Source: Butyrivibrio sp.
GTDB taxonomy: Bacteria; Bacillota; Clostridia; Lachnospirales; Lachnospiraceae
NCBI GenBank assembly: GCA_014799955.1
Contig: JAAVHB010000023.1
Location: 1-58,638 of the forward strand
DNA length: 58,638 bases
Direction of reading: 5' to 3'
Shown here: positions 1 through 29,262 of the stretch, in pieces
Layout of the letters: every line of letters starts with the position of its first letter
Position numbering within the stretch: the first letter of the stretch is position 1
The notes under the pieces: model-generated
Database searches by the model: none
Seen by the model: only the letters and a program-made list of their open reading frames with translations
Told to the model about the DNA's origin: nothing
Program-made: the position numbers and the translations under genes

Positions 1-199
1 ATTTGCTGGGTATTGCCGAAAATCCCGACTGAATCTCACCGTGTGCTCTTGTCGCGTTGATTATAAGCACATAAAACCAGAACAGACACAGCACTGAAAC
101 TAAAGTCAGTACAATATATGCTATCACCTTGCGGAATGTAAGCGATGCACTTTTTTCAAGTTCGCCGCCCGGCGTTCCCTGAACATTCTTTTTCGCCAT
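1..199 (-). CDS. Carbohydrate ABC transporter permease (MalG/CUT1 type), partial
   Basis: Only the N-terminal 66 residues lie in the window; the gene runs off the left edge. The ATG follows a GGGGGTGAT ribosome site. A short polar head is followed by one long hydrophobic segment (about residues 25-48) and then the motif INATRAHGEIQ. CUT1 MalG-type permeases typically have a similar sequence just after their first membrane helix. It follows the MalF-type permease by 12 bases and would form the second half of the membrane channel with it. The family call comes from this N-terminal signature and the operon; substrate is unknown. Confidence 0.8.
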   Translation of the reverse strand, partial: MAKKNVQGTPGGELEKSASLTFRKVIAYIVLTLVSVLCLFWFYVLIINATRAHGEIQSGFSAIPSK

Positions 200-211
200 A
201 ATATCACCCCC

Positions 212-1153
212 CTAATTATCTTTCTTTCTGTACATAATATTATATACGGAAAGACTGAGTATAGTTGTAATTATAAACAGGATTACCGAAAGGGCGCCTC
301 CGAGACCGTAGTTCTTGCTGAACAAATGCTTGTTCAGATACATTATCAGCGTCATAGAGGTACGGTTTATACCGCCGGCACCGTCCGTAAGTATCTGCGG
401 TACATCAAACATCTGGATACCGCCTATCAGAGAGGTAATAATTACATAAATAAGTATTGGTTTAAGCAGAGGAAGCGTAATTCTCGTGAATCTCTGCCAT
501 GAATTGGCTCCGTCCACCTCGGCAGCCTCGTAAAGCGATACGTCAATTCCCATAATACCTGCCATGAGGAGTATTGTGGTATTACCGAACCACATCAGGA
601 AGTTCATCGCCGCTACAAGACTTCGGGTTCCCCATACATTATACAAAAAGCTGAAAGGTTCATCAATAAGCCCTATTTTAATCAAAATACTGTTTACCGG
701 TCCGTTGTCGGAAAAAAGCGCAAAAAACAGCATTGAAAACGCCGATGCCATAATAAGGTTGGGAAGGTATATTACAGTCTTAAAGAAAGCGCTTCCCTTA
801 AGCTTAAGTCTGCTGTCCGAAAACCACTGCGCTAACAAAAGCGATACCAGAATCTGCGGTATGAATCCCATTATCCACATAATAGCGGTATTGCCGGCAT
901 ACTTTAACAAATCGGTCTTAAATATTGTCGCATAATTTTTAAACCCTACCCAATTGGGTCCGATTACCTTACGACCGTCTCTATAATATTCAAATAAACT
1001 ATAATAAAACGTGTTCACCAGCGGAACAAGCTGGAATACAAGAAATGCTACGATAAACGGTATCAGAAATATGTAACCCCATTTATTATACCGTACCGCC
1101 TTGCTGTTCTTGCTCTTTCTCACCGCGGTGGCACCCTTCTGATTAGCTGCCAT
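212..1153 (-). CDS. Carbohydrate ABC transporter permease (MalF/CUT1 type)
   Basis: A 313-residue integral membrane protein with about six hydrophobic helices. The inner-membrane-component loop is recognisable near the C-terminal third (EAAEVDGANSWQRFTRITLP), which contacts the shared ATPase. I chose the ATG preceded by AGGAGTG; an upstream in-frame ATG lacks a good ribosome site. It lies between the binding-protein gene and the MalG-type permease gene in one operon. No ATPase is encoded here, as is common for clostridial CUT1 systems that share one MsmK-like ATPase encoded elsewhere. Sugar specificity cannot be read from the permease; the neighbouring cellobiose phosphorylase makes a beta-glucoside plausible. 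Confidence 0.92.
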   Translation of the reverse strand: MAANQKGATAVRKSKNSKAVRYNKWGYIFLIPFIVAFLVFQLVPLVNTFYYSLFEYYRDGRKVIGPNWVGFKNYATIFKTDLLKYAGNTAIMWIMGFIPQILVSLLLAQWFSDSRLKLKGSAFFKTVIYLPNLIMASAFSMLFFALFSDNGPVNSILIKIGLIDEPFSFLYNVWGTRSLVAAMNFLMWFGNTTILLMAGIMGIDVSLYEAAEVDGANSWQRFTRITLPLLKPILIYVIITSLIGGIQMFDVPQILTDGAGGINRTSMTLIMYLNKHLFSKNYGLGGALSVILFIITTILSLSVYNIMYRKKDN

Positions 1154-5046: not shown

Positions 5047-7482
5047 ATGAAGTATGGTTATTTTGACGATTCCAACAGAGAATATGTCATCACCACCCCG
5101 AAAACTCCCCTTCCGTGGATTAACTATCTCGGTTCAAAGGAGTTTTTCACGCTTATTTCCAACACCTGCGGCGGTTACACTTTCTATAAGGACGCCAAGC
5201 TGCTCAGGCTCACGCGTTACCGTTACAACGATGTACCCAACGACATTAACGGTAAGTACATTTACATAAAGGACGGCGATTCAATCTGGAATCCCGGCTG
5301 GAAGCCCACCAAAACGGAACTTGATTCATACGAGTGCCGTCACGGTATGGGCTACAGCAAGTTCAGAGGCAGTAAGAACGGACTTGAGGCGTCGGTTCTC
5401 ACCTTCGTTCCCATGAGCGACAACTGCGAGGTCACACGCCTTACGCTCACCAATAATTCCTCCGCGGACAAGGATTTCAAGGTATTCTCCTATGTTGAGT
5501 GGTGTCTCTGGAACGCTGACGACGATTCCCGTAATTTCCAGCGTAACCTGAGCACCGGCGAGGTTGAGGTTGACGGCTCCACAATTTATCATAAGACGGA
5601 GTACCGCGAACGCCGCAATCATTACGCCGTTTATTCGGTAAACAGCCCCGTTGACAGCTTCGACACCGCAAGGGACAGCTTTGTCGGACTTTACAACGGA
5701 ATCGACACTCCCGACGCCGTCGTAAACGGCGCGTGCACGAACTCCGTGGCAAGCGGCTGGTCGCCCATCGCAAGCCATCAGCTTAACGTAAAGCTCGCTC
5801 CCGGCGAAAGCAAGAGCTTCGTGTTCGTTCTCGCTTATATCGAAAATCCCGTTGAGGATAAATGGGAGTCCCATAATGTAGTTAATAAGAAGCCCGCAAA
5901 AGCGCTTCTTGCAAAATATCAGACGGATGAGGACGTTGACAGGGCATTTGCCGAGCTTAACGACTATTGGACAGCCCTTCTCTCCAAATATACGGTCAAT
6001 TCCTCCAACGATAAGGTCAACCGCATGGTAAATATCTGGAACCAGTACCAGTGTATGGTAACCTTTAACATGAGCCGTTCCGCTTCTTACTACGAATCGG
6101 GCATCGGCCGCGGAATGGGTTTCAGAGATTCCTGCCAGGATCTTCTCGGCTTCGTTCATCTCATTCCCGAGAGAGCGCGCCAGAGAATTATAGATATCGC
6201 TTCGACGCAGTTTGAGGACGGAAGCGCTTATCACCAGTACCAGCCCCTTACCAAAAAGGGTAATGCCGACATAGGAAGCGGCTTCAACGACGACCCGCTC
6301 TGGCTCATTGCCGGAACCAGCGCCTACATCAAAGAAACCGGTGATATTTCCATACTTAAAGAAATGGTTCCTTTTGACAATGACGAATCCAAGGCACAGC
6401 CGCTTATGACGCATCTTAAGCGTTCCTTTGATTACATTGTAAATCACAAGGGACCTCATAAGCTTCCTCTTATCGGACGCGCGGACTGGAACGACTGCCT
6501 TAACCTTAACTGCTTCTCCGAGCAGCCCGGCGAATCCTTCCAGACCTTCGGTCCCTCGGAAGGCCCCGTTGCCGAGTCGGTATTTATCGCCGGAATGTTT
6601 GTAAAATACGGCAAGGAATACGCTGAGCTTTGCGAGCTTCTCGGAGATTCCTCCGAAGCCGCTTACGCGCTTGCCGAGGTTGATAAAATGTATGAAGCCG
6701 TTCTTGCGGACGGCTGGGACGGCGACTGGTTTGTTCGCGCCTATGACGCGTACAGCAACAAGGTCGGCTCCAAGGAATGCGAAGAGGGTCAGATTTTCAT
6801 CGAGCCCCAGGGCTTCTGTGTTCTCGCCGGAATAGGCGTTGAAGAAGGCCACGCAAAGAAGGCTCTCGACTCCGTTAAGGAAAAGCTTGATACAAAATAC
6901 GGCGTAATGATTCTTCAGCCCGCCTATACCAAATACCATGTCGAGCTTGGCGAGGTCACCTCATATCCTCCGGGATACAAGGAGAACGCCGGAATCTTCT
7001 GTCACAACAACCCTTGGGTTTCCTGCGCCGAAACCGTTATCGGACGCGGCGACAGAGCCTTTGAGATTTATCAGAAAACCTGCCCCGCGTACTGCGAGGA
7101 ATTCAGCGAAATTCACAGAACCGAGCCGTATGTATATTCACAGATGGTTGCGGGACGCGACGCGAAATTCCACGGCGAGGCAAAGAACAGCTGGCTCACC
7201 GGTACAGCGGCATGGACCTTTGTAAACGTTTCCCAGTATATTCTGGGCGTTGCTCCGACGCACAAGGGACTTTCAATAAATCCCTGTACGCCTAAGGGCT
7301 TCGGCGACTTTACGCTGACCAGAAAATTCCGCGAGGGCACCTACAACATCACGGTTAAGAATCCCTCCGATGTTGAAAAGGGCGTTAAGTCAATGACAGT
7401 TGACGGCGCCGCCGTTGACGGATGCGTAGTTCCCTACGTTCCCGGCAAGGAGGTTTACAACGTAGAGGTTGTAATGGGATAA
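5047..7482 (+). CDS. GH94 cellobiose/cellodextrin phosphorylase
   Basis: An 811-residue cytosolic enzyme, the usual length for cellobiose phosphorylase. It opens with [18 protein letters not shown] and continues with the N-terminal beta-sandwich, then the (alpha/alpha)6 barrel. The catalytic-region motif [12 protein letters not shown] holds the general-acid Asp at about residue 483. The family splits cellobiose with phosphate into glucose-1-phosphate and glucose, saving ATP. The start was set at the second ATG because AGGAGG (5032-5037) is nine bases before it and only three before the first. It is divergent from the sugar importer, which probably supplies substrate. No signal peptide is visible. 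Cellobiose against longer cellodextrins is not decided by sequence alone. Confidence 0.93.
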
Positions 7483-8601: not shown

Positions 8602-9199
8602 GCGGATTTGTTTTTTTCCGTCCCATAATTTTACAAAAGATTACCGCTACCGCCGTGCTTACCGTTGTCGCGATTATTCCTGGGATAATTATCGCCGTCG
8701 GGCTTACGCTTCCGTACTCTGCTCTGTAAGCGATTATATTTACCGGAATAAGCTGGATTGACGAAATATTTATGATGAGAAAAGCGCACATTGCGTCGGA
8801 GGCGGTTTTCACATGGCTTCCCGCCGCCTCGTCCTGAAGTGAAGCGAGCGCCTCCATTGCCTTAAGCCCTGCCGGAGTCGCCGCCCATCCAAGCCCGCAT
8901 AAATTGGCAATCATATTCATCGCGATATACTCTGCCGCCGGGTGCGTCATCGGCACCTCGGGAAAAAGAAATTTAATAAGCGGACTGATTCTCCTTTTCA
9001 AAGAGGTAATCAGCCCGCTTTTCTGCGCGATATTCATAAGCCCTGTCCAAAGCGACACGATTCCGAGCATTGTGATGCACAACGATACCGCCTCGCCGCC
9101 GCCCTCAATAAGTCCGTTGCTCACTGACTCTATGTTTCCGGTCACGGTTCCGTAAATCACTCCCGCAAGAATCATAAAAGCCCAAAGATAATTAAGCAT
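8567..9199 (-). CDS. spmA: Spore maturation protein A (nucleoside-recognition-like)
   Basis: A 210-residue membrane protein with four to five helices and the Gate/nucleoside recognition pattern of SpmA: residues around PAAEYIAMNMIANLCGLGWA and DAMCAFLIINISSIQLIPVNI. SpmA acts with SpmB in spore core dehydration in Bacillus. SpmB is not adjacent here, which is unusual because the pair is normally encoded together. The start has only a weak GGGG ribosome site. Convergent overlap of 35 bp with the bile salt hydrolase gene means each mRNA tail is antisense to the other. Confidence 0.85.
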   Translation of the reverse strand: MLNYLWAFMILAGVIYGTVTGNIESVSNGLIEGGGEAVSLCITMLGIVSLWTGLMNIAQKSGLITSLKRRISPLIKFLFPEVPMTHPAAEYIAMNMIANLCGLGWAATPAGLKAMEALASLQDEAAGSHVKTASDAMCAFLIINISSIQLIPVNIIAYRAEYGSVSPTAIIIPGIIATTVSTAVAVIFCKIMGRKKTNPPNSAFLSARSK

Positions 9200-9253
9200 G
9201 CGCGATGCCCCGCATACATGGAGTTACAACAGTATATGCCGTTTCTTACGGCT

Positions 9254-10153
9254 CTATTCTCCGAAAATCATGCGGTAGCTCTTGCCAAATTCTTCTCCCG
9301 CCCCGAGACTGTTGCCCCATTCGCGTTCCTTAAGCTCTCCGTCAAAATCCTCTCCGTCGCAGCGTCCGTACCACGGCTCAATGCACACGAACGGCGCGTC
9401 CTTTCCCGCTGGGCTCCAAAGTCCCACCAACGGCGCGTCAAACTCAACCGTAACGTACTCCGTCCCGTCCGGCTTCGCAAGCGAAACCCTGTCCGCCTGA
9501 CTGTTTTCAAGTATCAGCGCGTCCTTCAAAAAAAGCTCCCTGCTTACGGCAAGAATCCCCCCGTCCGTTTCATAGCTCACCGTTTCCTTTGCCGCCGTCC
9601 CCTCCGAGGTCAAGTGCGTGCAGTCAAAGCCCTCAAGCGGCTTTCCGTCCTTATAAAGCCTTATTGTATAGTCCTTCTGCTCTCCTTCTCCGTCAACGGG
9701 ACACATAAAGGCGGGATGCCCTCCTATTGAAAAATACATCGTGCCGTTTCCCGTGTTGACCACTCTCCAGCTTACCTTCAAGCTTTTGTCCTCAAGCTCA
9801 TAGCTGATTTCAAGGCGGAAACTAAACGGATATACACGAAGCGTATCCTCATTATCCGTGAGCGCCATCGTTATTTTCGTATCGCTTTGGCTTACAAGCT
9901 CAAATTCCATATCCCTCGCAAAGCCGTGCTGTCCCATGGGGTATACCGCACCGTCATGCCTGTACTGTTTATCCTTAAGGCTTCCCACAATCGGGAAAAG
10001 CACCGGAGCCGTCCTGCCCCAGTATTTTGCGTCCGCATTCCACATATACTCGCATCCGTTCCTGACGACTGACGCAAGCTCCGCGCCCTTTGAATTGATT
10101 GTGACCGCGGTGTGACCGTCGGTGAGTATGTATTTGTTTGGTTTTGAAGTCAT
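9254..10153 (-). CDS. Aldose 1-epimerase family protein (LacX-like)
   Basis: A 299-residue galactose-mutarotase-fold protein. The motifs RTAPVLFPIVGSLKD (about residues 47-61), MGQHGFARDMEFEL (His near 75) and MYFSIGGHPAFMCP (His near 155) match the LacX/YeaD-like branch of aldose 1-epimerases, which interconvert sugar anomers. It is cytosolic, with AAAGGA ahead of the ATG. It stands 54 bases upstream of spmA on the same strand but shares no evident function with it. The exact sugar (hexose or hexose-6-phosphate) is not determinable here. Confidence 0.88.
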   Translation of the reverse strand: MTSKPNKYILTDGHTAVTINSKGAELASVVRNGCEYMWNADAKYWGRTAPVLFPIVGSLKDKQYRHDGAVYPMGQHGFARDMEFELVSQSDTKITMALTDNEDTLRVYPFSFRLEISYELEDKSLKVSWRVVNTGNGTMYFSIGGHPAFMCPVDGEGEQKDYTIRLYKDGKPLEGFDCTHLTSEGTAAKETVSYETDGGILAVSRELFLKDALILENSQADRVSLAKPDGTEYVTVEFDAPLVGLWSPAGKDAPFVCIEPWYGRCDGEDFDGELKEREWGNSLGAGEEFGKSYRMIFGE

Positions 10154-10182
10154 TGTTGTGTCCTTTCAATACTGCATATATT

Positions 10183-10380
10183 TTAATTATAATTGATAGA
10201 GCGCGAAGAAGCAATAACCGCATGATTAAACATGCGGTTATTTTCTGTCATGTTTTCCTCTGTTATCTTTGTCACCGTCGTTTCATTGGCAGAATTAGGC
10301 TCCGCGGTATTCGGTTCCTCTGTACACCCGGTGAAAGCTATGACAGCTCCTATAAATATCAATGATATAATTTTCTTCAT
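10183..10380 (-). pseudogene. Truncated paralogous lipoprotein (signal and tether only)
   Basis: 65 residues: a lipoprotein signal peptide with lipobox FTG-C at residue 19 and a Glu/Thr-rich tether almost identical to those of the next two lipoprotein genes. The entire folded domain is missing. The reading frame instead runs into the array's terminator hairpin, giving a nonsense tail. The start codon overlaps the upstream stop as ATGA. It looks like the end product of recombination between tandem copies at the 3' boundary of the array. Confidence 0.7.
10217..10246 (-). terminator. Terminator at the end of the lipoprotein array
   Basis: AATAACCGCATG pairs perfectly with CATGCGGTTATT around a six-base loop. 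It is nearly symmetric, so it may act in both directions. A degenerate relative, with the same AACCGCA/TGCGGTT arms, lies at 12399-12430 after another array member. Confidence 0.75.
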
Positions 10381-23546: not shown

Positions 23547-24521
23547 TTATTTACCCTCCAGCAGCCGCCGCTGCCTGCTTAAACGCTCTTTTACAAGCCC
23601 GAGAAAGTCTTCGCTGCCGACAACCTTAAGCATCGGACCGAAGGAAAGCACCTCGATGAGCAGCTCGGTTTCGGTTCTTTTATTATAGTAGATAAGGCAT
23701 TCGTATGTATCGCCGTCGATTTTTCTCGTTCTCTTGTCATAATTGGCAAACTGAAGCATGGCACGTTCAAGAACGTTGCGCTTGTTATTTATTATGACGC
23801 GCGCAGGCTCTTTGTAATAGGAATGACAAAGCGCGCGGTTTATGTTGGGTATGTGCTCCGCCGTTTCCCCGGACGGGATAATTTGTGTTATGCGGTTAAG
23901 ATTCAGCATTTCGACTCTCGGATTCCGTAACGCACGTCTGTCAACCGCCAGAAGACGGAAGCGGTCATTTTTAATCGAATACTCCAGACGGCAGGGCAGA
24001 TAATTATGGTGAACCCGTTGCCCGGTACGCGATTCGTAATCAATATCAAGATACTCACGGTTTTTAATACCCTGAATAAGTGCCTGAAAATGCTTTCTGT
24101 ACTTGGGGTCGGTGTAGTCGTCCTTATCGGCAAAGCGGTCATAATAATAAAAATCGTCGGACGTATAAAGCGGCTCCACTTCGCCGAGCGCGGCGTTTAT
24201 GCCGTCGATTTCATCATCGTCAAGAAAAAGACGGATTTTGTCGTCGGTCAGAATCGCTTTGAGATAGGATTTCTGCAAATCGGTAAGCGGAACATAGAAA
24301 TCCGTGGACAGTCTTGATTTGAAAACGCTTGCGCCGTCTTTTTCATAAAAGCCCCATTCGCCGTCTGTAAGCTTGGGGAAAAGATAGAAAAGACTCTCCT
24401 CAAACCCGCTGTCCTTAATGCGAAAATCCAGCTCGTTTTTGGATATGCGGTCCTTCTTTTCAATCAGCGACTTTATTACCTGAAAATAGCAGTTATATAC
24501 CTCCGAAAAGATTTCGGACAT
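23547..24521 (-). CDS. WYL-domain regulator 2
   Basis: 324 residues. The WYL fold is recognisable in the middle (about residues 150-230: REYLDIDYESRTG, LPCRLEYSIKNDRFRLLAVD, RNPRVEMLNLNRI), followed by a WCX-like C-terminal extension. No clear helix-turn-helix is seen at the N-terminus, so it may act as partner of the adjacent larger WYL protein. WYL domains bind nucleic-acid-derived ligands and control RNA-repair and phage-defence operons. It starts 14 bases after the first WYL gene, with GGGGGAG as ribosome site. Both face away from the RtcB module. Confidence 0.85.
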   Translation of the reverse strand: MSEIFSEVYNCYFQVIKSLIEKKDRISKNELDFRIKDSGFEESLFYLFPKLTDGEWGFYEKDGASVFKSRLSTDFYVPLTDLQKSYLKAILTDDKIRLFLDDDEIDGINAALGEVEPLYTSDDFYYYDRFADKDDYTDPKYRKHFQALIQGIKNREYLDIDYESRTGQRVHHNYLPCRLEYSIKNDRFRLLAVDRRALRNPRVEMLNLNRITQIIPSGETAEHIPNINRALCHSYYKEPARVIINNKRNVLERAMLQFANYDKRTRKIDGDTYECLIYYNKRTETELLIEVLSFGPMLKVVGSEDFLGLVKERLSRQRRLLEGK

Positions 24522-24535
24522 ATGCTCTCCCCCTT

Positions 24536-25768
24536 TTAGTCAAAATACAGCTTATATGTTTCGTAGAAATCCCTCTTGAAAAGCCCGGCAAGCTTTTCGC
24601 TGTCCGATTCAACATCAATTATCCTTCCGGTAAAGCTGCGAATCCACGGAAGCATTTCGTTTGCGTCAAACACTTCGGTTTCGTATGTAAAGGTATCCGG
24701 AGCAATCCGTGAAAGAACGCCGCCCTTTCCCTCGCGCTTAAAACGGTTAATAATATGTTCCTCGGTTTTTTCATTGATATTCACGGTCAGCTTTACACGC
24801 TCCGTACGCGTACGGCTTTCATTCTGAAAAGAAACGCCCCACGCCCTTTCTTTATTTCTGTACAAATCCTCTCTTATATCCTTATAGCCGGGGCATTTTT
24901 CCTGAAGCTTAACCTCCTTTACGGCGTCAAGACGGAAACAGCTAAATTTCTTTTTTTCCGTAATATAAAAACAGACATAACGCCGACCGGTGCGCGTGCT
25001 TATAAATATTTTGAGCGGAACACCGCCCTGCTCCTGAAAATTTTCGTTTTTGGAGCTTTTCAGCTTTACAATAACCGCTCTTTCGTCATGCATGGCGCGG
25101 AGTATGTCAAGAAGCACCTCGTCCTCCAGCGTATGCACAAAAAAGCTGTGCTTCACCCGAAAAACGTCATTTTTAAAACCAAGATTTTCCATTACGGTAT
25201 TTCCGAGTATTCCGACAGGAGCACTAAGCTGGTAAAGCTTCACGGCCTCCGCCAGTGCGGGGAAACGTGAAAAAATTTCGCGCGGCGAAGCGTTAAGGCT
25301 GTACAAAACCTCCCTGCCGCTCTTTGATTTTATCAATATCCCCTCCGCCGCATATTCGTTGCATTTGCGTCTTATCGTCTGAGCGTCAAAAAACACGCCG
25401 TATTTATCAAGAATCCCGTCCGTTATCCCGTCGGCGGTCTTTTCGTTTTCCTTAAGAAGATAATCGATTATGTAAAAATGCAGCATAATGTCATTGTCGG
25501 TAAAGCTTTTTGCCTTCCAGACCTGATACAGCGGATTTGTGTCAAGCAGATTGCTGTCGATTGAAAGATATATATTTTTACCCTTTTCCGTATAATCCTG
25601 CTTTACATAGCCCGCAAGCCAGCTTTCAAGCCTGCGCCGCTCGTTATCGTATGTGCGTCCGCTCCAGCCTGAGAATTCATCACGGGTTTTAAAGCCGTAC
25701 ACAAAAAAATCCCGCACATATTCACGGCTCTTTGAAAAGGACTTTATAAGCTCACTGAATTCCGACAT
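24536..25768 (-). CDS. WYL-domain regulator 1 with N-terminal helix-turn-helix
   Basis: 410 residues. The N-terminal third is helical, with a winged-helix-like segment (ITDGILDKYGVFFDAQTIRRKCNEYAAEGIL). The WYL-type domain follows (AVIVKLKSSKNENF, VPLKIFISTRTGRRYVCFYI, SCFRLDAVKEVKL), and then a WCX-like region ending in YKLYFD. It heads a two-gene operon divergent from the Y RNA/TROVE/RtcB unit, with about 220 bp between. In other bacteria RtcB operons are controlled by RtcR or by WYL proteins, so this pair is the likely switch, perhaps responding to RNA termini or damage products. The start follows GGAGG. Confidence 0.85.
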   Translation of the reverse strand: MSEFSELIKSFSKSREYVRDFFVYGFKTRDEFSGWSGRTYDNERRRLESWLAGYVKQDYTEKGKNIYLSIDSNLLDTNPLYQVWKAKSFTDNDIMLHFYIIDYLLKENEKTADGITDGILDKYGVFFDAQTIRRKCNEYAAEGILIKSKSGREVLYSLNASPREIFSRFPALAEAVKLYQLSAPVGILGNTVMENLGFKNDVFRVKHSFFVHTLEDEVLLDILRAMHDERAVIVKLKSSKNENFQEQGGVPLKIFISTRTGRRYVCFYITEKKKFSCFRLDAVKEVKLQEKCPGYKDIREDLYRNKERAWGVSFQNESRTRTERVKLTVNINEKTEEHIINRFKREGKGGVLSRIAPDTFTYETEVFDANEMLPWIRSFTGRIIDVESDSEKLAGLFKRDFYETYKLYFD

Positions 25769-25813
25769 ACCTGCCTCCGATTTGAAGAAACTCTTTTAAA
25801 TGATTATACCTTG

Positions 25814-25890
25814 ACAACTAACCTCGGCTACGCCTCGCTAAGGTGTCAGGTATATATTCATACTAAGCTCGTTAAAACCTCGCTAAGTAT
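25814..25890. promoter_or_regulatory. Divergent control region with paired CCTCGCTAAG repeats
   Basis: CCTCGCTAAG occurs at 25833-25842 and again at 25878-25887, exactly 45 bp apart. Each copy is the right arm of an imperfect inverted repeat (left arms near 25821 and 25863). The region lies between the WYL operon and the Y RNA unit, so these are candidate WYL operators. No consensus -35/-10 pair for the Y RNA transcript was convincing. Confidence 0.45.
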
Positions 25891-25984
25891 TCATATTATA
25901 TCATATGTTTTTAAGCTCGCAACTTTTTTGAAATGATAAAAATTTCCAGTTGTCATATTATGTATTCAGACAAAGGAAAACAAA

Positions 25985-26113
25985 GGTAAGGCGCTGTCGT
26001 ATAGCTCAGTCGGTAGAGCGCAAAAAACAGGTCTTGACAAAGACCTTAACAGCAACTTAAGCACATTAAAAGTGGTTGTCGCGGGTTCGAATCCCGCTGC
26101 GCCTGCCCTTACC
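25985..26113 (+). ncRNA. Y RNA-like tRNA mimic 1 (YrlA type)
   Basis: A tRNA-like shell without an anticodon arm: D stem GCTC/GAGC (26004-26007 with 26016-26019), T arm GCGGG-TTCGAAT-CCCGC (26081-26097) and an acceptor-like AGGCGC/GCGCCT pair (25989-25994 with 26099-26104). GGTAAGG/CCTTACC (25985-25991 with 26107-26113) offers an alternative outer helix. In place of the anticodon arm is a 60-nt module containing the hairpin GGUCUU-GACA-AAGACC then UUAACAGCAAC. That module is shared with the next RNA. It lies directly upstream of TROVE-like and rtcB genes, the standard context of bacterial YrlA RNAs, which tether Ro60-type proteins to nucleases. Confidence 0.82.
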
Positions 26114-26137
26114 GATGTTTTCCGGCGTCATATGAAA

Positions 26138-26247
26138 TGCGAAGTAGCTCAGCGGATAGAGCACCATATGAAAAACAAGCCTTGACAAAGGCTTTAACAG
26201 CAACACTCAGGGACGTGGCGGTCATGGGTTCAAATCCCATCTTCGCA
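26138..26247 (+). ncRNA. Y RNA-like tRNA mimic 2 (YrlA type)
   Basis: A near-perfect tRNA frame: acceptor TGCGAAG/CTTCGCA (7 bp, 26138-26144 with 26241-26247), the U8-A9 equivalent TA, D stem GCTC/GAGC (26147-26150 with 26159-26162) and T arm ATGGG-TTCAAAT-CCCAT (26224-26240). The anticodon arm is replaced by a module of about 60 nt with AGCCUU-GACA-AAGGCU then UUAACAGCAAC. The hairpin stem covaries with that of mimic 1 while the GACA loop and UUAACAGC are invariant, which argues for selection on structure. No CCA is encoded. Ends 38 bases before the TROVE-like start codon. Confidence 0.85.
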
Positions 26248-26285
26248 ATTTGCGCAAAATTATTTCAGTACGGAGGTTGAATATC

Positions 26286-27794
26286 ATGAGTTTTATGGAA
26301 AAACTGAACAATACACTGAACAACAGAACAAAACTGACCGAAAACGGCGCGCTTGGCTGCGAAACAAGCGGCAAGGCGCTTGTGGATCTGAATTTTTCCG
26401 TTTCGTCGCTTCGCAGCAAGAGCGAAAAGGAAATTATCAGGCTTTTTATCCGCGCTTTTTACGAGGACAGAGTGCTTGCGGTCAAATGGCTTTTCTTCCT
26501 GCGCGATGTCAGGGGCGGTCTGGGCGAAAGAAGATCCTTCCGCATTATAATAAGGTACATGGCAAGAAGCTTTCCCGACACGGTAAACGCACTTGTGCCG
26601 ATAATGGCGGAGTACGGCCGTTTCGACGACCTACTGTGTCTGCTTGGCTCTCCCGCCGAAGAAAAGGTGATGAGCACACTTAAGGCACAGCTTTACGAGG
26701 ATATTGAAAATATGCAGAACGGCATGAGCGTTTCTCTCTGCGCAAAGTGGATGCCGAGCGCCAACGCTTCCTCTGAGGAATCCGCGAAAACGGCGGCAAA
26801 GCTGCAAAGCTTTTTCGGACTTACCGCAAAGGAATACCGCAAGCTGCTTTCCGCTCTGCGAGCGTACCTGAACGTGACCGAAACTTATATGAGCGCCAGT
26901 CGTTGGAGCGAAATCGACTATACGGCAGTTTCCTCAAGGGCAAACATTATTTACCGCAACGCTTTTCTGCTTCACGACGAAGAAAGAAGGAAAGCGTACC
27001 TTGACGCCGCGCAAAATAACGAAGCAAGAATTCACGCGGGCGTGCTGATGCCCCACGAAATTGCAGTGCAGTATACCTCAAGAAACCCTTACAGTCTTAA
27101 GATAAACGCCAAGGATGCGGCTCTTGAAGCTCTCTGGCAGAATCTGTCCGATACGGTTTCGGGTGCGGAAAACGTTCTGTGCGTCGTGGACGGCTCGGGC
27201 AGTATGCTTTGTCAGGTGGGCGGCGGCACTACCGCGCTTCATGTTTCAAATGCGCTCGGAATTTATTTTGCAGAACGCCTGAGCGGCGCGTACCGAAACA
27301 AGTTCATCACGTTTTCAAGCAGCCCGAAGTATGTGGACATATCCTCGTGCAGAACGCTTAAGGAAAAGCTTGAGCTTGCGTTTTCAAATAACGACTGCAC
27401 AAACACCAATATCGAAGCGACCTTTGACCTGATACTGGAAACAGCGGTCAGAAACGGGCTTAAGCAAAACGAGCTTCCGCAGACCGTCCTCGTTATTTCC
27501 GATATGGAATTCGACTCGGCGATGTTCAGAACCAAGCCCGAGGCTTTGTTTAATACAATACGAAATAAGTTCCTGCGCCGCGGCTACATAATGCCGAAGC
27601 TGGTATTCTGGAATGTGAACAGCAGAACGGGTGTGGTTCCGGTTCGCGAAAACAGGCTCGGAGTGGGACTTGTCAGCGGATTTTCAGTCAATGTATGCCA
27701 TATGGTTCTCTCAAACGAGCTTGACCCGTATGCGTGCCTGAAGAAAATTCTTGACGGAGAAAGATACAGAAAGGTGGAAAATTGCATATGTTAG
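26286..27794 (+). CDS. TROVE/DUF2828-like vWA protein (Ro60-like RNP component)
   Basis: 502 residues. The N-terminal helical-repeat region (about residues 30-250) contains FFLRDVRGGLGERRSFRIII and AEYGRFDDLL, typical of the TROVE/DUF2828 group that forms a ring around RNA ends. The C-terminal von Willebrand A domain has the MIDAS-type DGSGSM motif (near residue 304), then TNIEATFDLIL and VISDMEFDSA, and ends with the DUF2828-type LVFWNVNSRTG and GLVSGFS. The family is related to Ro60, which binds Y RNAs and misfolded RNAs. The start after GGAGG was chosen. Its TAG stop overlaps the RtcB ATG (ATGTTAG), indicating coupling. The Y RNA partners upstream support the RNP assignment. Confidence 0.85.
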   Translation: MSFMEKLNNTLNNRTKLTENGALGCETSGKALVDLNFSVSSLRSKSEKEIIRLFIRAFYEDRVLAVKWLFFLRDVRGGLGERRSFRIIIRYMARSFPDTVNALVPIMAEYGRFDDLLCLLGSPAEEKVMSTLKAQLYEDIENMQNGMSVSLCAKWMPSANASSEESAKTAAKLQSFFGLTAKEYRKLLSALRAYLNVTETYMSASRWSEIDYTAVSSRANIIYRNAFLLHDEERRKAYLDAAQNNEARIHAGVLMPHEIAVQYTSRNPYSLKINAKDAALEALWQNLSDTVSGAENVLCVVDGSGSMLCQVGGGTTALHVSNALGIYFAERLSGAYRNKFITFSSSPKYVDISSCRTLKEKLELAFSNNDCTNTNIEATFDLILETAVRNGLKQNELPQTVLVISDMEFDSAMFRTKPEALFNTIRNKFLRRGYIMPKLVFWNVNSRTGVVPVRENRLGVGLVSGFSVNVCHMVLSNELDPYACLKKILDGERYRKVENCIC

Positions 27795-29020
27795 TAATTT
27801 TTAATGATAAAACAAAATTTCCTGTTAAAACATGGCTTTCGGGCATGGATAGGCTGGAGGAGTCCTGTCTTGAACAGGCTTACAATCTCTCAAACCTTCC
27901 TTTTATCCACAAATGGGTATGCCTTATGCCCGATACTCACACCGGAATGGGTATGCCTATCGGCGGCGTGATTGCCGCAAAGGACGTTATTATTCCCAAC
28001 GCGGTGGGCGTGGACATCGGCTGCGGCATGGTTTTTACGGCAACAAATATAAAGCTTGACGCAATAAAGGATATTACGGTCGGCACCTCGACAATAATAC
28101 AGTCCATGATCGGCGGCATCATGCGTGCCATACCGGTAGGCTTTGAAAGCTATAAGGAAAAACAGAAATCCGAGGTGCTTGATACCGCACTTGAAAGCAT
28201 GGATAAATACAATGACAACCCGGAGCTTACGCACCTGATTGACGAGGGCTATTTTCAGGTGGGAACTCTCGGCGGCGGCAATCACTTTATTGAGCTTCAG
28301 GAGGACGGAGACGGTTATCTTTGCATTATGATACATTCGGGAAGCCGTCACCTCGGAAAGGAAATCTGCGACTGTTTTCACAAAAAGGCGCGTGAGCTTA
28401 ACAGGAAATGGTACAGCGAAGTGCCCGACGGGGCAAGACTGGCGTTCCTTCCCGTTGATACAAACGAGGGAAAACAGTATCTTAACTGGATGAATCTCGC
28501 AATGGATTACGCCTTTGAAAACAGGGAGCGTATGCTTGAAAAAACCTGCGCCGTAGTCAGGGAGCATATAGAAAAATACGCCGGACTTTCCGTGGAATTT
28601 ACCGACAAAATCAACTGCCACCACAACTACGCCGCCCTCGAAAACCACTACGGCGCAAACGTATGGGTTCACAGAAAGGGCGCGACAAGAGTACGCGCAG
28701 GCGAGCTCGCCGTTATCCCCGGCGCAATGGGCTCCTACAGCTATGTCGTAGAAGGCAGGGGAAACGAGGAATCCTTCTGCACCTCCTCGCACGGGGCGGG
28801 AAGAGCTTACTCAAGAAGCGGCGCAATGCAGGCGTTCACGACGGAGCAGGTTATTGTAGATTTAAAGGAACAGGGAGTTGTCCTCGGCAAAAGAAAAAAG
28901 AACGACGTCGCGGAGGAATGCCGTTTCGCCTACAAGGACATTGACGAGGTTATGGCACAGCAGACCGATATTGTAACGCCGATAAGAAAGCTGAAAACGG
29001 TGGGCGTAGTAAAGGGGTAG
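27788..29020 (+). CDS. rtcB: RNA-splicing ligase RtcB
   Basis: 410 residues, the compact bacterial RtcB. Metal and guanylate ligands are visible in order: VGVDIGCGM (Asp/Cys), TLGGGNHFIEL (Asn/His), IHSGSRHLG (His), KINCHHNYAALENH, and SSHGAGRAYSR with the His that is guanylylated. RtcB joins RNA 2',3'-cyclic phosphate or 3'-phosphate to 5'-OH using GTP and Mn2+. It repairs tRNAs and other RNAs cut by ribotoxins. Translation is coupled to the TROVE-like gene. A hairpin at the stop codon (29011-29038) probably ends the transcript. Confidence 0.96.
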   Translation: MLVIFNDKTKFPVKTWLSGMDRLEESCLEQAYNLSNLPFIHKWVCLMPDTHTGMGMPIGGVIAAKDVIIPNAVGVDIGCGMVFTATNIKLDAIKDITVGTSTIIQSMIGGIMRAIPVGFESYKEKQKSEVLDTALESMDKYNDNPELTHLIDEGYFQVGTLGGGNHFIELQEDGDGYLCIMIHSGSRHLGKEICDCFHKKARELNRKWYSEVPDGARLAFLPVDTNEGKQYLNWMNLAMDYAFENRERMLEKTCAVVREHIEKYAGLSVEFTDKINCHHNYAALENHYGANVWVHRKGATRVRAGELAVIPGAMGSYSYVVEGRGNEESFCTSSHGAGRAYSRSGAMQAFTTEQVIVDLKEQGVVLGKRKKNDVAEECRFAYKDIDEVMAQQTDIVTPIRKLKTVGVVKG

Positions 29021-29038: not shown

Positions 29039-29052
29039 AATCATTCTGAAAG

Positions 29053-29126
29053 TCGGCGCGACAGGATTTGAACCTGCGACCTCTGCGTCCCGAACGCAGC
29101 GCTCTACCAAACTGAGCCACGCGCCG
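29053..29126 (-). tRNA. tRNA-Pro (anticodon CGG)
   Basis: A 74-nt cloverleaf: acceptor CGGCGCG/CGCGCCG, D arm GGCTCAGTTTGGTAGAGC, anticodon stem CTGCG/CGCAG with loop TTCGGGA, and T arm GCAGG-TTCAAAT-CCTGT. The CCA is not encoded. Reads CCG proline codons. Confidence 0.96.
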
Positions 29127-29155
29127 ATGTAAAAAAATTTGCTTTTTAGCAACAA

Positions 29156-29182
29156 CACGGTGTAACCTGACGGTTACACCGT
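29156..29182 (-). terminator. Hairpin between the two tRNA-Pro genes
   Basis: ACGGTGTAACC pairs perfectly with GGTTACACCGT around a four-base loop. It lacks a strong T run on the minus strand, so it may be an RNA-processing signal or a weak terminator between the tRNAs. Confidence 0.6.
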
Positions 29183-29188
29183 ATTAAG

Positions 29189-29262
29189 TCGATGCGACAG
29201 GATTTGAACCTGCGGCCTCTACGTCCCTAACGTAGCGCTCTACCAAGCTGAGCCACGCATCG
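29189..29262 (-). tRNA. tRNA-Pro (anticodon AGG)
   Basis: A 74-nt cloverleaf: acceptor CGATGCG/CGCATCG, anticodon stem CTACG/CGTAG with loop TTAGGGA, and T arm GCAGG-TTCAAAT-CCTGT. It differs from its neighbour mainly in acceptor and anticodon stems. Reads CCU proline codons. Confidence 0.95.

Follow-up and report, generated by a model that had tools for sequence, protein, structure and literature searches.

A candidate Ro60-like ribonucleoprotein with tRNA-mimicking RNAs, a DUF2828 protein and RtcB in Butyrivibrio and its relatives in bacteria and phages

What is the role of two RNAs that resemble tRNAs, each carrying a large insert, when they are encoded between a pair of WYL-domain regulators and the genes for a DUF2828 protein and the RNA ligase RtcB? 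The question is raised by a stretch of 58,638 nucleotides from the gut-type bacterium Butyrivibrio sp. (Lachnospiraceae; GenBank assembly GCA_014799955.1, contig JAAVHB010000023.1), referred to in its entirety as the window, in which these elements occupy positions 23,547 to 29,020. The answer favored here, at a probability of roughly 0.75 and on the basis of sequence comparison, is that the locus encodes a Ro60-like ribonucleoprotein (RNP) with tRNA-mimicking RNAs, plus RtcB as its partner, which would be made together upon tRNA damage. An earlier sequence-only reading had proposed that the divergent WYL pair, the two RNAs, the DUF2828 gene and rtcB form one system, and both the gene order and the protein families bear this out, such that the locus reads as a unit. 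The two WYL genes are co-directional and divergent from the RNA-DUF2828-rtcB operon, and the rtcB start codon (ATG, 27788) lies inside the 3' end of the DUF2828 gene (27794), an arrangement described in that reading as translational coupling. The features, in window coordinates, are as follows.

23547 to 24521, minus strand: WYL-domain regulator A, 324 amino acids (PADLOC WYL E 1.4e-8; Pfam WYL 17.5 bits, under the cut-off of 21.8)
24536 to 25768, minus strand: WYL-domain regulator B, 410 amino acids (PADLOC WYL E 1.3e-9; Pfam WYL 18.1 bits, under the cut-off of 21.8)
25895 to 25922, minus strand: promoter-like TTGCGA-N16-TATAAT for the WYL genes (consensus scan, 10/12)
25918 to 25937, plus strand: candidate operator CGCAACTTTTTTnnnnTGAT, overlapping the -35-like hexamer of the divergent WYL promoter (genome pattern search)
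25933 to 25961, plus strand: weak promoter-like ATGATA-N17-TATTAT, 5' of RNA1 (consensus scan, 9/12)
25995 to 26105, plus strand: RNA1, tRNA-shelled (Rfam tRNA 35.6 bits; 96.8 bits with model R1, not independent because RNA1 was used to build it; fold z -4.45)
26029 to 26055, plus strand: putative recognition module of RNA1, AGGUCUU-GACA-AAGACCU-UA-ACAGCAA (shared core, module parse, covariation)
26062 to 26074, plus strand: remnant anticodon hairpin of RNA1, CAC-AUUAAAA-GUG (read from the sequence)
26138 to 26248, plus strand: RNA2, tRNA-shelled, acceptor pairs 7/7 (Rfam tRNA 49.6 bits; 90.9 bits with R1, likewise built with this RNA; fold z -2.73)
26177 to 26203, plus strand: putative recognition module of RNA2, AAGCCUU-GACA-AAGGCUU-UA-ACAGCAA (shared core, module parse, covariation)
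26286 to 27794, plus strand: Ro60-like DUF2828 + DUF7788 protein with a von Willebrand factor A (vWA) domain, 502 amino acids, with the metal-ion-dependent adhesion site (MIDAS) motif DGSGSM (Pfam; alignment; hhalign)
27788 to 29020, plus strand: RtcB RNA ligase (PF01139 E 1.1e-111, 374.6 bits, residues 1-426 of 426)

Both RNAs, whose anticodon region holds a large insert, pass the Rfam tRNA gathering cut-off (29 bits). ARAGORN calls neither of them as a tRNA gene; the only tRNA genes that it calls in the window are two for tRNA-Pro (CGG and AGG anticodons; 29052-29262, minus strand), located directly 3' of rtcB and convergent with it. The inserts have in common the core CUUGACAAAGRCYUUAACAGCAAC, which matches twice in the window (up to 3 mismatches) and in none of 100 shuffles of it. 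The z-scores given above refer to positions 25980-26117 for RNA1 and 26137-26249 for RNA2. The lowest-energy fold of RNA2 is a cloverleaf shell plus the module; that of RNA1 keeps the module and the T arm, loses the D arm and is not a cloverleaf. In the tRNA register only 5 of the 7 acceptor pairs of RNA1 form, and 25980-26117 could accommodate a longer outer helix. In both RNAs the D arm precedes the T arm and the acceptor is open, meaning that neither is permuted. The sequence-only reading had described tRNA shells in which the anticodon arm is replaced; the shells stand, while the replacement does not, as the arm is split by the insert and its loop is kept in 25 of 36 aligned relatives. The RNA1 hairpin at 26062-26074 was not aligned as such by MAFFT, and the equivalent helix (80-82/90-92) covaries in the relatives.

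Homologs of the DUF2828 protein provided the comparative material. They were found in 20 of 150 genomes of the same family (including the genome of the window itself, and counting in G106 a 27-residue fragment with a stop), on 32 viral contigs, and at 559 or more places in the genome collection, from which a set of 80 was retained. Among the matches listed, the kept relatives come mostly from Lachnospiraceae and other Clostridia, and also from Treponema, Breznakiella, Brachyspira, Veillonella, one Bacteroidales bin and one Victivallales bin. The element that recurs upstream of these genes, hereafter the module, consists of a 7-bp helix, a tetraloop that is often GNNA, 2 bases, and RCAGCAA. From 54 rows of candidate tRNA-like RNAs (1 empty), 50 were parsed and 3 lacked the module under the parsing rule; two parses judged wrong (L135, and L091 at -159) were dropped and 2 identical copies removed, leaving 46 unique sequences, of which 36 were aligned. 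In these 36 relatives the module is inserted into the anticodon stem of the cloverleaf after nucleotide 28. Under this split-cloverleaf model, 96.4% of 974 cells form standard pairs, changes on both sides are seen in 23 of the 28 pairs, and double-change cells number 268 compared with 78.3 in shuffles; when the partners are slid by 1-3 columns as a control, pairing falls to 33-50%. Covariation is seen in each half of the split anticodon stem (helix 3 is 94.4% paired, helix 5 90.2%), and RNAalifold, unaided, recovers four helices (acceptor, D arm, module, T arm) and misses the anticodon remnant. The imperfect acceptor of RNA1 and its departure from a cloverleaf in the lowest-energy fold might suggest decayed, functionless tRNA pseudogenes, an explanation that is scarcely credible in that it is contradicted by the covariation, with its changes on both sides of most pairs, and by the conservation of RCAGCAA.

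The position of the insert also suggests intron-bearing tRNAs, in which the module would be an anticodon-stem intron, cut by an unknown nuclease, with the ends joined by RtcB to give functional tRNAs. RtcB is a known tRNA-splicing ligase, and many relatives would yield a full cloverleaf once the module is subtracted. The 25 relatives mentioned above have, 3' of the insert, a 7-base anticodon loop on a stem of 3 positions, at least 2 of them paired; 22 of the loops carry U at position 33 and 23 carry A at position 37, and the anticodons are varied (GAU in 5, GUC in 5, UUU in 4, UCU in 2, and eight others once or twice). Nevertheless, in the remaining 11 of 36, which include RNA1 and RNA2, the alignment shows no complete anticodon hairpin, some sister RNAs (read from the upstream sequences) have lost the D arm, and 66 of the 80 loci show no RtcB in the sequence stretch examined. 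Further difficulties come from a second arrangement of the module, described next: a T arm is not found in most of its copies, and simple excision from permuted copies could not yield tRNAs. Because module RNAs that are permuted, or that lack the D arm, anticodon loop or T arm, are common, the intron explanation is disfavored and considered unlikely.

At many loci the module is open and reads 5'-AAGRYNN-NN-ACAGCR ... complementary arm-G-3'. Of the 94 core motifs upstream of DUF2828 genes, 37 are closed and 57 are not; 55 of these 57 have a complementary 3' arm within 170 bases (2.8 expected with the downstream bases shuffled), and a G follows the arm in all 55. A control sequence of 1.56 Mb contained 22 cores, four of them with an arm. 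Since the geometry of helix and motif is identical in both forms, we read the open and closed forms as circular permutations of one another at the AAG/CUU helix end. Searching the 55 open-form loops gave a T arm in 15 and none in the other 40; what the loop of the module encloses is sometimes a T arm, sometimes a tRNA, and sometimes a permuted tRNA with the element order of the bacterial Y RNA YrlA. The YrlA order (T arm, closed acceptor hairpin, D arm) occurs in the loops of some phage RNAs adjoining DUF2828 genes, supported by sequence and minimum-energy fold at L029@5085, L176@774, L190@3155, L190@3495 and L192@2081, and by sequence only, the lowest-energy folds being different, at L175@3743 and L192@2473 (locus and position). 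A further candidate for a permuted tRNA, L050@1361, was rejected, as it spans two tandem closed RNAs.

The association of the module with DUF2828 genes was assessed using a relaxed rule that covers both forms, applied to upstream regions of at least 400 bases with few N. The module is present upstream at 76 of 94 loci, compared with 6 of 76 downstream and 3 of 94 in antisense, and the totals are 148, 10 and 3 modules, respectively; the loci are partly draft bins and mutually related, so that these are not counts of independent events. This rule replaced an earlier, looser scan (57 of 76 upstream loci, 9 downstream matches, 5.6 of 76 in doublet shuffles). On the 32 viral contigs, 43 modules are in sense and 4 in antisense orientation, and 16 contigs carry a module. 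The proposal that DUF2828 homologs have such RNAs beside them is upheld, the RNAs being present at part of the phage loci as well. The evidence from whole genomes is less informative: model R1 matches all 150 family genomes, and because the listed matches of up to 54.2 bits are mostly of tRNA length (73 bases), only matches of at least 57 bits were counted. Full-length matches at this level occur in 7 of the 150 genomes, six of which contributed sequences to the model, the seventh being G131. The co-occurrence of RNA and DUF2828 in 6 of these 7 genomes was set aside as weak support, because sequences from those six went into R1 and the only independent genome, G131, has no DUF2828 gene. As a separate observation, at locus L005 a Clostridiales-1 RNA (RF01699, 113.2 bits; 174-339, minus strand) lies upstream of the DUF2828 gene on the opposite strand.

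The bacterial modules lie upstream of DUF2828 on the same strand, as would cis-acting leaders, that is, elements of the 5' untranslated region that would let the DUF2828 protein control its own mRNA. This is a very unlikely account, given multiple copies at one locus (148 over 76 loci), phage copies that are scattered over kilobases among tRNA genes, a copy in G118 located ~7.6 kb upstream, and a copy in G131 that precedes another operon.

In phages, DUF2828 matches 681 of 50,697 records. Ten annotated phage loci, chosen by the author from the match lists, contain 33 sense and 4 antisense modules. Annotated tRNA genes are present within the fetched stretch in eight of the ten (in L189 a single one, >2 kb away); L175 has a tRNA by Rfam only, and L173 has none. 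In Listeria phage P100plus an RtcB-type ligase is encoded 1.3 kb downstream of DUF2828. The phage loci bear on a further explanation, in which the RNAs are decoys or sensors for anticodon nucleases: the RNAs would serve mainly as bait, their cleavage would feed the WYL switch, and the DUF2828 protein would be a stabilizing shell. The intact and varied anticodon loops of the 25 relatives and the location of the phage RNAs near tRNA genes are consistent with such baits, and a role as competitive inhibitor, competing for the nuclease, has been suggested for YrlA (PMC7790460). On the other hand, loci with only open forms (39 of 94) are no rarer than those with only closed forms (32 of 94), most open forms have no visible anticodon loop, and Salmonella YrlA is reported in the same paper not to be a substrate of the nuclease (PMC7790460). 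The decoy explanation is possible, though less likely than not. Separately, in locus L174 (Klebsiella phage KP2025), a deposited 432-base 'tRNA-Arg-TCT' (5854-6285) overlaps the DUF2828 start and is possibly a mis-called tRNA or a tRNA-like element.

The protein at the center of the proposed Ro60-like RNP matches DUF2828 (PF11443, E 1.2e-32, 113.8 bits compared with a cut-off of 29) and DUF7788 (PF25043, E 7.5e-40). The MIDAS residues D302, S304, S306, T374 and D406 are invariant in an alignment of 27 sequences, in agreement with the prior assignment to a TROVE/DUF2828-type vWA protein with DGSGSM. That the protein is closer to DUF2828 than to classical Ro60 is supported by the PF11443 match and complemented by remote TROVE homology. 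By Pfam the protein is not a TROVE member: PF05731 has 0 matches in the genome of the window, while the positive control, Deinobacterium chartae, was matched. An hhalign comparison of DUF2828 with TROVE, represented by seven proteins of the phylum (where TROVE is rare, in 9 of 398 genomes), gave 96.6% probability over 388 columns at 15% identity, and the alignment is collinear (columns 61-486 on 69-495), covering the N-terminal part and the vWA domain. These results support DUF2828 as a remote, collinear homolog of TROVE/Ro60. In one viral contig (L038, 1634-4212) the DUF2828 gene is split by >1 kb between query residues 78 and 80, possibly by an inserted element.

The regulators and RtcB are linked to the RNAs by a candidate operator. 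CGCAACTTTTTTnnnnTGAT lies between the WYL and RNA promoters and is the single match in the 2.78-Mb genome (up to 1 mismatch), and the reversed control pattern has none. Its core, CGCAACTTTTTT (up to 1 mismatch), occurs upstream of DUF2828 at 15 of 17 loci with WYL A compared with 8 of 63 without (Fisher p 8e-9, with related loci not independent). The WYL pair named in the sequence-only reading is significant with the PADLOC models and recurs at other loci; its Pfam scores remain below the cut-off. Among the 49 loci with >3 kb on both sides, 12 have RtcB, 11 both WYL genes, and 4 WYL A and RtcB, and the recurrence of the WYL pair and RtcB beside DUF2828 as optional parts is supported. Genome G131, which lacks DUF2828, keeps the WYL pair, operator and RtcB together, which was counted in favor of the RNP reading: a CGCAACTTTTTT core separates the WYL pair from an RtcB that is 69% identical, and a second copy precedes a closed tRNA-like RNA 5' of another operon (L160, 8000-13000). 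By reading, not by family search, this operon is one of nicotinamide adenine dinucleotide (NAD) salvage (nicotinamidase, phosphoribosyl pyrophosphate synthetase, nicotinate phosphoribosyltransferase, NAD synthetase, Nudix). In G047 the WYL pair and the DUF2828 locus (taken as L107) are on different contigs, with the CGCAACTTTTTT core at both. Because of the placement of the core in these two genomes, the data support a putative WYL regulon comprising RtcB and the RNAs. Genes echoing the NAD operon, for a nicotinamide phosphoribosyltransferase and a PnuC-like transporter, are found near DUF2828 in a Klebsiella (L174) and an Enterococcus (L176) phage. Among 20 neighbor genes of chosen loci there are extra WYL genes (L110, L133, L134), a weak RNA-ligase match (L102) and, elsewhere, unrelated housekeeping genes. 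The L102 match (RNA_ligase, PF09414, below cut-off; 8813-10294) follows an aminotransferase gene downstream of DUF2828, and an aminotransferase is also present in L104.

While the preceding results favor an RNP, several observations weigh against it. No module was found by the scan at 18 of the 94 loci, although four of these (L003, L076, L104, L107) have a divergent module, with the same RNA sequence in L003 and L107. Modules are likewise missing from 16 of the 32 viral contigs, the phage loci L173, L188 and L191 (3 of 10) have no sense module, and both sense modules in phage locus L174 look doubtful. The relaxed rule has a real background, since it also matches 8 of the 14 stretches taken from TROVE loci (partly overlapping, ~3 kb each and scanned on both strands); one of these matches, in G254 and present in L171 and L177, overlaps a YrlA-like RNA at its start. 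G131 has the RNA in the absence of DUF2828. Adjoining DUF2828, RtcB is encoded at only 14 of the 80 genome loci, WYL A at 17, WYL B at 16 and both at 15, many of the flanks being short. Finally, the TROVE homology is remote, at the low identity given above, and a profile search of PDB sequences returned nothing significant, with TROVE only at E 0.12.

The module, its covariation, the associations with gene and operator, and the TROVE homology are computed results, from which we infer binding, the direction of regulation, the effector role and the architecture of the RNP. In the proposed scheme, the module (helix, 2 bases, RCAGCAA) would be the binding site of the DUF2828 protein, and the tRNA-like part would be the effector end, a mimic shown to enzymes that bind, modify or cut tRNA, which in many relatives would present an intact anticodon loop. 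The RNP may either bait anticodon nucleases or channel damaged tRNA; RtcB from the same operon would reseal breaks with 2',3'-cyclic phosphate and 5'-OH ends; and the two WYL proteins may switch the operon via the CGCAACTTTTTT operator upon a damage signal. Reasoning by analogy, we favor a Ro60-like RNP that would handle or shield tRNA during damage, with RtcB as ligase. A broader claim, for which the arguments on either side appear evenly matched, is that there may be a second, TROVE-independent class of Ro-type RNP in bacteria and large phages, with its own RNA code (7-bp helix, 2 bases, RCAGCAA) and a tRNA mimic in both circular permutations, that together with RtcB would shield tRNA pools from anticodon nucleases. 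To our knowledge DUF2828 has no tested function, and a candidate RNA partner makes it a testable RNP. The two permutations suggest that selection keeps a geometry, the tRNA mimic beside the binding helix, and not the order of the RNA, an argument that bears on the question of why Y RNAs mimic tRNAs. The location beside phage tRNA genes ties the putative RNP to the tRNA arms race, and the recurrence in many bacteria and phages points to a widespread, mostly unrecognized RNA-protein particle tied to tRNA protection or repair.

Among known systems, the phage 'Ro-like RNA binding protein' (phrog_850; CKA15_055 of Listeria phage CKA15) belongs to the same protein family as DUF2828; CKA15_055 is probably a DUF2828 gene, given that HHpred matches it to Rsr and that it lies next to tRNA genes. 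For CKA15, the portion of the report available suggests that abundant noncoding transcripts up to 2 kb upstream are possible Y RNAs, and within that portion no definition of an RNA family or motif was found (PMC12282133). Its highly transcribed region (26,236-26,727) was rejected as evidence of expression, as it lies off the modules of the related phage cka17 at 25,287-25,553 (the same numbering being assumed). A jumbo-phage survey notes ROT/TROVE proteins (PMC7824862) and Vibrio phage pir03 is described with a Ro-type protein (PMC7765460); neither is matched to DUF2828 here. Some phage records of the DUF2828 family are named RNA-binding or Ro-like RNA binding (e.g., in mycobacteriophages) and others hypothetical; the Ro-likeness of phage DUF2828 is therefore already in print and in databases. 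A literature search, with subscription journals mostly outside its reach, found no published description of the RNA class, the module, the permutations or the WYL operator. Paired WYL activators of the PafBC type likewise consist of two adjacent WYL proteins, the target here presumably being an RNA-repair operon. With TROVE/Ro60 (PF05731) the window protein shares the collinear N-terminal part and a vWA domain with MIDAS; it differs in having no PF05731 match, being placed by Pfam in DUF2828/DUF7788.

The closest parallel is YrlA with Rsr/Ro60 beside rtcBA (Salmonella, Deinococcus), where, as in the window, rtcB and the gene for a Ro-type protein accompany an RNA that combines a tRNA-like part with a protein-binding helix (putative in the window). 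Hughes et al. 2020 report that damaged tRNAs regulate the rsr-yrlBA-rtcBA operon of Salmonella (PMC7790460). The sequence-only identification of the window RNAs as YrlA-type Y RNAs was rejected on score and topology: the YrlA covariance model (RF02553) gives at best 29.8 bits in the window against a gathering cut-off of 69, and this match is a chimera of the RNA1 T arm and the RNA2 D arm. The YrlA order of some phage RNAs beside DUF2828 is a further likeness, and in Enterococcus phage EfV12-phi1 the model matches two of these RNAs over its full length (45.2 and 34.3 bits, below 69). As a yardstick, matches below the cut-off occur in 9 of 9 TROVE genomes and 11 of 14 control genomes, reaching ~33 bits away from TROVE, and are in our reading ordinary tRNAs; because of this background only the 45.2-bit phage match stands clear. 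Compared with YrlA, the window RNAs are unpermuted and have RCAGCAA (ACAGCAA) in place of UACUUCG, and the neighboring regulators are a WYL pair, not RtcR. YrlA-like permuted RNAs adjoin TROVE in 5 of 9 genomes (32.5 to 39.9 bits, all below the cut-off), and all five carry UACUUCG before the tRNA-like part. TACTTCG is present in 14 of 14 TROVE-derived stretches on either strand, some of this being expected by chance at that length, compared with 3 of 94 DUF2828 upstream regions, these regions being shorter and scanned on a single strand. Each protein family thus seems to go with its own RNA signature, and this is the main argument for the module as the probable binding site of the DUF2828 protein.

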